In this document: positions 33,796-36,794 of the stretch, piece after piece
How the letters are laid out: the number at the start of each line of letters is the position of its first letter
Position numbering within the stretch: the stretch's first letter is position 1
NCBI GenBank assembly: GCA_945889015.1
Contig: CAMDBL010000004.1
Span: forward strand, 1-59,630
Length of the DNA: 59,630 nucleotides
Direction of reading: 5' to 3'
Source: Devosia equisanguinis
Lineage (GTDB): Bacteria > Pseudomonadota > Alphaproteobacteria > Rhizobiales > Hyphomicrobiaceae
Notes under the pieces: generated by a model
Told to the model about the DNA's origin: nothing
The model's database searches: none
Seen by the model: only the letters and a program-made list of their open reading frames with translations
Translations under genes and position numbers: made by a program

Positions 33796-34109
33796 GAGCG
33801 GGGAGGGGAACCGGGCTGAAATTCTCAACGGGCGGACGACGTGCGGGCAAAAAATTGGGTGCCCAGACGGGGCCAAGCTACAATATGTAGAATTTTATAG
33901 ACCGCTGGCGGGAATCGGTGGAAAATTTTGCGCACGAGTTGCCAGTGGCTGCCCCAATCAGCCACCGACAGCGTCTCGTAAGTTCTCAGCCAGTTGTTGC
34001 GTCGCGTTCCGCTCCACTTGGGCGGCGGCGACTTATGATTCCTCCGCGATTCGGAGATTCGCCGTCAAGCCTTCGTGGTCTCAGAACACGCGAATTGAGG
34101 CAGACGACG
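33796..34109. other. Lower-GC intergenic region before the HNH-like gene
   Basis: This 314-bp stretch has clear A/T-rich tracts (around 33850-33900) unlike the surrounding DNA, and a small dyad CTACA-ATA-TGTAG at 33878-33890. I see no convincing gene. It may mark the left edge of an acquired segment and probably holds the promoter of the next gene. Confidence 0.45.
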
Positions 34110-34544
34110 ATGAAGAATGCACTCCTCCCTGATGGCTGGCACTGGCATACCCAGGCAAGTCCATTCAAGACAAGCCAATCACACAATGGTCTCATGTCTG
34201 CGTGGCCAGCCGCCGAAGCGACGCGTTCCGTTCTGGATCCAATTGTTCTATATCGCACTCGCCTTGAGCCTGCGCTGTGGGTCAGGAACGTCGCAGGTAC
34301 CAGCGGTTACACATGTGGATGCTGTAGAGGCTGGCTTGAGCACCATGCCCGCCACGCAGGATACTTCTCGAACTGCTCCGCTTTCGACTGTGAGGGCATT
34401 GCATCGGTCGGCGCCCACTTGGCCATTGTCCAGCGCGCCGATAATCGCTGGTGGATTGCCCCTCTCTGTCACAGGTGCAATCACCGCACTGAAGTTTTTC
34501 AGCTGCGGCGCGCGGTTCCCTTGGTAAGGGCACGGCATTGCTAA
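34110..34544 (+). CDS. Small Cys-rich HNH/zinc-ribbon-like protein
   Basis: An ATG at 34110 with GAGG ~9 bases upstream gives 144 residues. Cysteines pair as C69/C72 (C-G-C-C-R-G-W-L-E-H-H), C89/C94 (N-C-S-A-F-D-C) and C120/C123 (P-L-C-H-R-C-N-H), with V-G-A-H-L before R-W-W-I-A-P-L-C. This spacing of two C-x2-C knuckles, G-A-H and a late C-x2-C-N-H resembles small HNH-like proteins I recall ending in W-Y-I-V-P-L-C-x-x-H-N. The family call is from memory, not a search. GC is visibly lower than in neighbouring genes, suggesting transfer. No partner gene is evident, and a hairpin-rich non-coding island follows. Confidence 0.6.
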   Translation: MKNALLPDGWHWHTQASPFKTSQSHNGLMSAWPAAEATRSVLDPIVLYRTRLEPALWVRNVAGTSGYTCGCCRGWLEHHARHAGYFSNCSAFDCEGIASVGAHLAIVQRADNRWWIAPLCHRCNHRTEVFQLRRAVPLVRARHC

Positions 34545-34580
34545 CGATAGCGGGCCCTACGAAAGTATCGCCGGCGCCAA

Positions 34581-34597
34581 TCTGACCTCTAGTCAGA
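34581..34597. repeat. TCTGAC/GTCAGA dyad at the left edge of the island
   Basis: Arms 34581-34586 and 34592-34597 are perfect with a 5-base spacer. The same TCTGACC core recurs in the right-hand repeat (35353-35444) and before the ABC ATPase gene (23732-23750). Confidence 0.5.
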
Positions 34598-34629
34598 CTA
34601 TCATCCCGGCGGCTGTAGGAGAGCCGGGC

Positions 34630-34671
34630 CCCAGGGGCCGCAGTCGAACCGTTCGACAAGCGGCCCCTGGG
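34630..34671. repeat. Strong hairpin with 12-bp perfect outer stem
   Basis: Arms 34630-34641 and 34660-34671 are perfectly complementary, and an inner TCGAA/TTCGA stem caps the structure. A stem of this strength is compatible with a REP-like element or a terminator for the upstream HNH-like gene. Confidence 0.7.
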
Positions 34672-34765
34672 TTCCGGATGGCCTTCTCGCGTGCCGCGCA
34701 CCGGCGTCCAGGACACACGCGCGGGATCATCGAGACGGCCGCTCTGATTTCGCCCCCCCTGCGCT

Positions 34766-34921
34766 CGTTTTCCCGGAAGCCGCGACAGACGTCGCCTGTG
34801 TGCGCGTCGTCAGCGGCGCGGCTATCCGGGACCTTTACCCGGTGAGGATCGATGGTGTGCGCATGCCACTGCCGGAAAGGTCCCGGATCTTCGCCGCTGC
34901 GCGGCTTCGTCCGGGAAAACG
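34766..34921. repeat. Long nested inverted repeat, outer 12-bp arms
   Basis: CGTTTTCCCGGA (34766-34777) is perfectly complementary to 34910-34921. Further inward matches (AGCGGCG-type, then a 13-bp pair) suggest one long imperfect inverted repeat of ~155 bp. A small hairpin TCCCGGA...TCCGGGA (34881-34916) overlaps the right arm. Confidence 0.65.
34824..34888. repeat. Inner perfect 13-bp inverted repeat
   Basis: ATCCGGGACCTTT (34824-34836) is perfectly complementary to 34876-34888, with 39 bases between. It is nested inside the 34766-34921 pair. Confidence 0.7.
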
Positions 34922-35128
34922 GAGGTGGTGAAATGGCCTGCGCGAGTAACCATTTCGGAGACGCCGGTTTGCAAAGTAATCCCCGCCCCATCCGCCTCCC
35001 GCATACTCCTCCAGCTCGCGCCGCTCGGGGTCGTCTTCCGGAAGGCAGGCCGTCAGGCGAGGCGCGGGCTCGGGTTCTCAGGTCGTCGGCTGCGATCCGG
35101 CGGGCTGGGCGGATGACAAAAGTCCCCA

Positions 35129-35146
35129 CTGCCGGGTGACCGGCAG
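35129..35146. repeat. 7-bp hairpin with GTGA (GNRA) loop
   Basis: CTGCCGG (35129-35135), loop GTGA, CCGGCAG (35140-35146). A GNRA tetraloop is a common feature of structured RNA, so this is a small argument that part of the island is transcribed. Confidence 0.5.
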
Positions 35147-35219
35147 CACCCCAGGGCCAGGGGTAGCGAGGGGGAGCATCCCGCAGGCGGATAGTCCCCC
35201 GCCGTTCAAATGCCCGAAA

Positions 35220-35291
35220 GCGGAGCGGCGGGAGCCGCATAAACCAGCCGGTCGTAAGGCCGGCAGTCACTCGCGGCCTCCGCCGCTCCGC
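35220..35291. repeat. 19-bp near-perfect inverted repeat
   Basis: Arms 35220-35238 and 35273-35291 match at about 17 of 19 positions and enclose a smaller GCCGG/CCGGC hairpin, giving a long two-tier stem. Confidence 0.65.
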
Positions 35292-35352
35292 GCCCCGAAC
35301 CCAGCATCGTATCGAGGTCCGTCATGGCGCGTGTATCTACATGCGACGTCGA

Positions 35353-35444
35353 GGTGTCTGACCTTTGGTCTGGACGCCCTGCTCGGCGACAGACCGACCC
35401 GCGACCGGTGTCGTGTGCCGGTGTCAGACCAGAGGTCAGACACC
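35353..35444. repeat. 20-bp inverted repeat with GTGTCTGACC core
   Basis: Arms 35353-35372 and 35425-35444 differ at one position of 20 and flank 52 bases. Each arm itself contains short GGTCTG/CAGACC symmetry. This closes the island on the right, ~120 bases before the MFS gene. Confidence 0.7.
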
Positions 35445-35561
35445 GGAAACGCGCTCCCACCGCGACGCAGACGAGCCCAGCTCAGATGGCACTTGCGCTC
35501 GTCGTCACCGCCCGGGAGATTGGCGCCAACCAGAACATGCAACGGGCGGAGCGCGGGCGGC

Positions 35562-36794
35562 ATGACGAGCATCGAGACGAGAGCCTCGTGGGTGGTCGCC
35601 GTCGTCGCCGTGCTGGTGCTCGCGGTCTCGTTCGGGGCGATCTACATCATCGTCGTCGCCATGAAGCCGATCGCGGCCGAGATGGGCGGCCAGCGCTCGA
35701 TCCCGTCCCTCGCCCACTCGCTCGCCTGGACCTCGGCCGCGCTCGGCGCCGTCGTCATGTCGCCGATCGCCGAGCGGATCGGCGTCCGCCTGACGGCGAT
35801 GTTCGGCGCCTGCATGGTGGCGATCGGCCTCGCCATCTCCTCGCTCGGCGAACCCTGGCAGCTCTACCTGGGCCACGGCCTGTTCATCGGTCTGATCGGC
35901 AACGCCGGCATCAATGCGCCGCTGTACGTCTACATCACGCGCTGGTTCGACAAGAACCGCGGCGCGGCGCTGGCGCTGATCACCTCGGGGCAATATCTCG
36001 CCGGCGCGTTCTGGCCACCGATTTTCGAGAGAACCATCGCCACATACGGCTGGCAAAAGACGATGCTGTATTATGGCCTCATCGAGATCTGCCTGGTGCT
36101 GCCGCTGGCCGCGATCTTCTTCCGCAAGCCTCCGGCCACGCCGGCGCTTGCGGCGGGCGCGCGGCCGGCAGGCCCACAGCCCGGCGAGAAAGTGCTCGGC
36201 CTCAATCCCAAGCTGGTGTTCTGCCTGATGGCCGTCGCCAATTTCACGTGCTGCGTGCCGATGGCCATGCCGTCCGCGCACATGGTGGCGTTCTGCGGGG
36301 ATCTCGGCATGACCGCGGCGTCTGGTGCGGCAATGCTGTCCCTGCTGCTCGTCTGCGCCATGATCAGCCGGCAATTCTGGGGCTGGCTGTCGGACCGGAT
36401 CGGCGGGCTGATGACGATCCTGATCTGCTCGGCGGCGCAGGCAGCCGCCATCGCCGGATTCGCGCTGACGCAGGACGAGGCCGGACTTTACTTCGTCGCC
36501 GCCGCGTTCGGCCTCGGCTTCTCGGGCCTGATCCCCGCCTACGTGCTGGTGGTGCGCGAACTCTTTCCAGCCTCGGAAGCGAGCTGGCGGGTGCCGGTTC
36601 TGCTGCTGTCGGGCGGCCTCGGCATGGGCATCGGCGGCTGGGTCGCCGGATACATCTACGACCATGCCGGCTACTACGCGCCGGCCTTCACCACCGGCCT
36701 CGCGTTCAATCTGGTCAACCTGATGATTGCCGCCTTCCTGGTCTGGCGGTGGCGCGGCTGGCGCACGGCGCCGGCACGGGCGGTGACCGCTTGA
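35562..36794 (+). CDS. MFS transporter
   Basis: The ATG at 35562 opens directly into the first helix and gives 410 residues with ~12 membrane segments. The MFS loop-2/3 signature is degenerate here (P-I-A-E-R-I-G-V-R), with R-W-F-D-K-N-R-G-A-A-L-A after helix 4 and W-G-W-L-S-D-R-I-G-G between helices 8 and 9. The latter two are typical of the oxalate/formate antiporter-like and monocarboxylate transporter branch. The substrate is unknown. Its promoter must lie in or next to the hairpin-rich island. Confidence 0.87.
   Translation: MTSIETRASWVVAVVAVLVLAVSFGAIYIIVVAMKPIAAEMGGQRSIPSLAHSLAWTSAALGAVVMSPIAERIGVRLTAMFGACMVAIGLAISSLGEPWQLYLGHGLFIGLIGNAGINAPLYVYITRWFDKNRGAALALITSGQYLAGAFWPPIFERTIATYGWQKTMLYYGLIEICLVLPLAAIFFRKPPATPALAAGARPAGPQPGEKVLGLNPKLVFCLMAVANFTCCVPMAMPSAHMVAFCGDLGMTAASGAAMLSLLLVCAMISRQFWGWLSDRIGGLMTILICSAAQAAAIAGFALTQDEAGLYFVAAAFGLGFSGLIPAYVLVVRELFPASEASWRVPVLLLSGGLGMGIGGWVAGYIYDHAGYYAPAFTTGLAFNLVNLMIAAFLVWRWRGWRTAPARAVTA

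Follow-up and report, generated by a model that had tools for sequence, protein, structure and literature searches.

The island and its dispersed repeats

The stretch of DNA analysed (the window) comprises 59,630 nucleotides of Devosia equisanguinis contig CAMDBL010000004.1 and contains, at positions 34545–35561, an island of about 1 kb. The island is preceded by a possible small ORF ending at 34544 and followed by an MFS transporter gene that starts at 35562. The ORF (33918–34544, + strand) ends exactly at the island start and comprises 208 codons, or 144 if read from the ATG at 34110; its deduced product is rich in cysteine and histidine near the C-terminal end (CGCC...CHRCNH) and had no Pfam or NCBIfam match. 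A scan with the MFS protein recovered one named relative only, from a Filomicrobium MAG. An earlier reading of this DNA (the original prediction) had seen no gene in the island, and the ORFs present there indeed matched no annotated protein family. A protein-coding island was discarded, since the ORFs crossing it lacked Pfam and NCBIfam matches and a 1-nt indel between copies of one of its parts (module C, see below) breaks all reading frames.

The original prediction had described the island as an unusually dense set of inverted repeats, some of them nested, plus a hairpin capped by a GNRA loop, and these were recovered as described. Arms of 12 bp lie at 34630–34641/34660–34671; a second 12-bp pair (34766–34777/34910–34921) encloses a 13-bp one (34824–34836/34876–34888); the 19-bp arms at 35220–35238/35273–35291 are 89% complementary, and the 20-bp arms at 35353–35372/35425–35444 are 95% complementary. 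Counting only perfect arms of at least 12 bp spaced by up to 150 bp, the island contains five inverted repeats (arms of 12–13 bp) versus 0.085 per kb in the rest of the window, and in 1000 dinucleotide shuffles the mean count was 0.028 and the highest one. Using the island as query against its own genome (G000; 4.8 Mb in 360 contigs, 96% complete), 23 matches including itself were obtained, which resolved into four unrelated families, named modules A to D. The original prediction was thus right in denying that a single repeat had been copied over and over, the arms falling into these four different families, and right about the excess density over the rest of the window. Copy numbers given below for this genome come from similarity or model searches of its contigs.

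Modules A and B are quasi-palindromic dispersed repeats to which no strand was assigned. Module A (34595–34726, about 130 bp) has the consensus CTGTCATCCCGGCCG...CCGGGATGACAG, also written CTGTCATCCCGG...CCGGGATGACAG. With its model, 29 matches were obtained in the own genome (both strands counted), corresponding to up to about 20 sites, and 16 of the 30 genomes searched were matched, other genera included. Module B (34761–34936, about 175 bp) is bounded by CGTTTTCCCGGA...TCCGGGAAAACGG, contains a nested hairpin and shows a DNA fold z of -7.9. It is present as four full and several partial copies (about eight sites), and weaker matches were found in six genera other than its own.

Module D is a 24-bp palindrome, GGTGTCTGACCnnnGGTCAGACACC, with about 64 sites in the own genome (model search, E < 0.2), half of which form 16 pairs 8–62 bp apart when pairs are counted within 120 bp. 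In the island, a degenerate left unit (35353–35379, + strand, 27.2 bits) and an inverted right unit (35419–35444, - strand, 41 bits) make up a REPIN-like pair, that is, a doublet of two inverted palindromes, with the 20-bp, 95% complementary arms mentioned above. REPs with their RAYTs, and REPINs, have already been described (PMC2817692, PMC3116915, PMC3733652), and module D resembles them as a short extragenic palindrome that is often paired; it differs in that no RAYT (Y1_Tnp) gene was detected in the own, 96%-complete genome and in that the exact palindrome was absent from all 39 relatives searched. Y1_Tnp was accordingly rejected as the mover of module D. This gene is present in nine relatives, none of which carries the exact palindrome.

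As extragenic palindromes at many dispersed sites, A, B and D all resemble REP/BIME sequences. A unit of 20–40 bp is found only in D (24 bp); A and B, imperfect palindromes between genes, exceed the size of REPs at 130–175 bp, so that they are better named REP/MITE-like. Abundant REP families are known from Bradyrhizobium and R. palustris, with Br-REP1 in B. japonicum (PMC3733652, PMC5082802). Br-REP1 and Br-REP2 are likewise multi-palindrome intergenic repeats from related bacteria and turn over quickly between species (PMC5082802), but the Br-REP1 consensus, CCGGAATCTCGAGATTCCGG, is unlike A, B and D when compared by eye. None of the three modules departs from the usual dispersed intergenic repeats of the REP/MITE kind. 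According to the original prediction, hundreds of intergenic sites per arm, as in ordinary REPs, would have spoken against it. Such numbers were not reached (about 64 sites for D, up to about 20 for A, about eight for B and four for C). Module A is abundant in relatives, one of which has 104 matches (both strands counted).

A second cluster containing modules A, B and C, in an order that differs from that of the island, is located on contig C140 of the same genome (5500–6333). The renewed mixture of these modules indicates that such repeats tend to accumulate together.

A promoter-like motif at the start of module C

Module C (34971–35346, + strand), which is not a palindrome, is proposed to be a structured non-coding RNA gene, with a predicted transcript from about 35014 to at least 35291. 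Near its left end lies a promoter-like bipartite motif, ATCCCCGC-N15-CATACT (34979–35007, + strand), with a predicted +1 at about 35014. When the motif was searched for with a free spacer, it was found in several genera with constant spacing. The pattern, derived from the module C family itself, had 56 exact matches in 30 of 249 Hyphomicrobiales genomes versus four for the reversed pattern. Its distribution is patchy, with exact matches in 22 of the 108 genera of the order and sporadic matches only elsewhere in the class. In 26 lineages it reads A-A-C/G-T-T-ATCCCCGC-(C-rich)-CATACT, with a spacer of 15 nt in 18 and of 16 nt in eight of them (14–17 being allowed); ATCCCC, which is preceded by TT, lies 17–18 bp from CATACT, and a purine is found exactly 7 nt past CATACT in 19 of the 26. 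This spacing, together with the purine at +7, has the geometry of a -35, -10 and +1 promoter, and the motif reads as one, its activity being predicted from that geometry. To our knowledge, none of the RpoH, EcfG, ECF or sigma-54 consensus sequences fits it, either by spacing or by sequence. Literature searches on the motif and on multi-copy RNAs of this kind, which left most subscription journals outside, retrieved nothing relevant.

The motif also occurs about 57 nt ahead of ORFs in genomes G165, G189 and G143 and near cysS in G048. It is thus placed shortly upstream of some protein genes, where a promoter would be. The ORFs behind it (loci L194, L195 and L196) are short, of about 90 aa in G165 and G189, and that of G165 had no Pfam match. 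On contig C82 of the own genome, ATCCCCGC-N16-CATACT is located about 200 nt upstream of groES, where it stands before an apparent housekeeping promoter and the CIRCE-like repeat TTAGCACTC...GAGTGCTAA of that gene.

Predicted structure and distribution of module C

In about 17 lineages the motif opens a structured body of 250–390 nt. In most of them it is the layout downstream of the motif that is shared and not the sequence, the stem sequences being wholly different between genera. The structures were located by folding, a procedure which favours the discovery of stems. A 5' stem of 8–11 bp, enclosing a hairpin, begins 4–9 nt past CATACT in most lineages. In the window it is formed by AGCTCGCGCC (35013–35022) and GGCGCGGGCT (35061–35070) on the + strand, with a second hairpin inside (p 0.01 versus shuffles); the corresponding arms are TCCCCGCC/GGCGGGGA in G194, TCTGACCGC/GTGGTCGGA in G010 and TTGCTTCG/CGAAGCAG in a further element, G010c. 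Compared with shuffles, the significance of this stem is weak in each lineage and strong jointly (Fisher chi2 101, 42 df). The hairpin with the GNRA tetraloop, CTGCCGG-GTGA-CCGGCAG, follows at 35129–35146 (+ strand), its loop being GTAA in the other two full copies.

The 3' part consists of a long hairpin (35220–35291, + strand), formed by the 19-position arms given above and a 34-nt loop that contains a smaller hairpin. Across lineages, its counterpart has 17–21 bp, a loop of 15–34 nt that is poor in G (9%), and a distance of about 180–410 nt from the motif. Scores of at least 40 were reached in 13 of 18 elements versus one of 86 flanking windows, and the long hairpin was far commoner at sites with the full motif than at other matches (Fisher p 0.002), chance matches to the motif lacking it. 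No clear 3' hairpin was found within 480 nt in G037 and G042. A U-run after the hairpin is missing in most members, though present in a few, and therefore no intrinsic terminator is evident.

Among the non-Watson-Crick positions of the stems, G-T (42) exceeded A-C (17), as expected for an RNA made from the + strand. Between G010 and G192, two species of one genus, none of 90 predicted pairs was broken and six were changed on both sides; seven of 500 shuffles paired equally well. Many of the paired changes among Devosiaceae copies pass through G-U, and some pairs break. In G148, the copies have G-C, A-T or G-T at one and the same stem pair. These comparisons argue with moderate strength for a secondary structure of module C that is probably conserved with compensatory change.

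The own genome contains four module C sites: that of the window, full copies on contigs C33 (92% identity) and C140 (94%), and 79 bp at the end of contig C241 (100%). An exact 23-mer of module C was found in none of 84,980 genomes plus viral contigs, which indicates that the primary sequence is confined to its own lineage; the sole outside match of the sequence was a short 5' stretch in G027, a genome of another family. No similarity to plasmid or phage DNA was detected for module C, the phages and viral contigs tested being negative. The element of the Devosiaceae relative G148 had one partial match, in an unannotated intergenic stretch of a Pelagibacterium plasmid, and because of this match the family of G027, G148, G214 and G232 is probably Devosiaceae. 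Eight occurrences of the motif were counted in G027, five each in G148, G232 and the own genome, and four in G214, a single-contig genome. The five copies of G148 (loci L180–L184), about 393 nt long, are 98–100% alike, with 22 variable columns. Eight of these columns fall within the 3' hairpin loop of about 22 nt, the most variable part, whose variability is about tenfold that of the remaining element.

A scan against Rfam, advised in the original prediction, gave no matches for the whole window at gathering thresholds, and with 12 module C-type loci searched up to E 5 nothing but unrelated, chance-level ones appeared. No tRNA or tmRNA was found.

Interpretation of module C and alternative explanations

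Taken together, we give a probability of roughly 60% to the reading that the island is pieced together from four dispersed intergenic elements, three of them (A, B and D) common palindromes of the REP/MITE type and the fourth (C) a structured non-coding RNA gene. Of the three identities first offered for the island (structured RNA, REP/BIME cluster or remains of a mobile element), two would thus each apply to a part of it: that of a REP/BIME cluster to about 350 bp, the dispersed palindromes A, B and D, and that of a structured RNA to module C (about 375 bp), where it fits far better. The best reading of module C itself is a new multi-copy family of structured RNA genes, with transcription and function predicted from motif and fold.

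The main rival to an RNA gene is a mobile element that lacks inverted ends. Module C would then be a non-autonomous element, MITE-like or similar to single-strand transposons, with its hairpins acting as transposase recognition structures and the island as a landing zone. Such an element would explain why module C sits among other dispersed repeats, why copies within a genome are 92–99% alike at different places, with sharp left boundaries in the Devosiaceae copies, and why A, B and C occur together once more, in a changed order, in the cluster on C140. We regard it as unlikely, since the terminal inverted repeats of a MITE were not seen and the flanks of near-identical copies show no obvious shared short target duplication, and since it accounts for neither the promoter geometry with its purine at +7 nor the G-U bias in the stems. 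Spread by phages or plasmids was not seen either, except for the one partial match on the Pelagibacterium plasmid.

The position of one element also bears on this alternative. In G027 and G232, which belong to one genus, and in G148, which belongs to another, an element separates lolC-lolD (FtsX/ABC proteins) from a dnaE-like gene, and these flanks can be aligned across the three genomes (loci L183, L140 and L185). The elements themselves are only about 66% alike after free gapping, whereas the G148 and G027 copies share 91–99% with paralogs at other places of the same genome. Copies that have diverged between species and resemble their paralogs within each genome suggest concerted evolution. 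A position common to two genera despite diverged sequences speaks against a mobile element, and the pattern would fit a family of resident genes that evolve in concert better than recent insertion; repeated insertion at one site is a possible alternative.

That the whole island is ordinary REP/BIME sequence, with the shared motif as a binding site or a coincidence, appears improbable. It agrees with the nature of A, B and D and with the comparable REPs of Bradyrhizobium and Rhodopseudomonas (PMC3733652, PMC5082802), but it leaves aside the 56:4 enrichment of the motif in the order, its fixed spacing and the link between the long 3' hairpin and the full motif (Fisher p 0.002). Less probable still is that module C serves the downstream gene (here the MFS transporter) in cis, as a leader of riboswitch or attenuator type: each of the four copies in the own genome precedes the next gene in the same orientation, but those genes (for an MFS protein, an amidase, an Hsp70-like protein and an unknown product) have no function in common, the next gene faces the element in G027b, G027c, G007 and G018, and genes start at least 300 nt from the motif in several relatives.

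If module C is a structured RNA gene, as we favour, a dedicated -35/-10 promoter, AACTTATCCCCGC-N15/16-CATACT, would start transcription about 7 nt past CATACT, and the nascent RNA would fold at once into the 5' stem around its hairpin. Further helices would follow, among them the GNRA hairpin in the window copy, and the RNA would end in or near the long hairpin, displaying a single-stranded, G-poor loop. We think that this RNA works in trans, either as a regulator or as the scaffold of an RNP, because it is multi-copy, homogenised within each genome and inconstant in position relative to neighbouring genes; promoter activity and transcript ends are likewise predicted.

If module C is transcribed, the order would carry an RNA of large size and ornate fold, with as many as eight copies per genome, that is in no RNA library and was missed by sequence searches because only its promoter and folding are conserved. 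There would also be an unassigned class of promoters, with groES and cysS as possible members of its regulon in some species. On this account, a family of RNA genes recognisable solely through its promoter can lie hidden in a repeat cluster that carries no annotation. We see even odds that module C represents a class of structured RNA not described before, multi-copy in Hyphomicrobiales, with a conserved promoter that no sigma factor known to us explains, rRNA-like homogenisation and the 3' loop as its sole fast-changing part.

Families of alpha-r small RNAs have Rfam models. The trans-acting alpha-r sRNAs of Hyphomicrobiales (PMC3927594) resemble module C in being intergenic, in having their own promoters and in occurring as several copies per genome; by description, module C is set apart by its larger size (250–390 nt), a different promoter motif and the lack of any Rfam match. 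With OLE and the raiA motif (PMC10898510, PMC11706538), module C shares the character of a large and ornate intergenic RNA first known from comparative genomics. It has no sequence or covariance match to either and differs from them in being found within one alphaproteobacterial order, in multiple copies that are homogenised.
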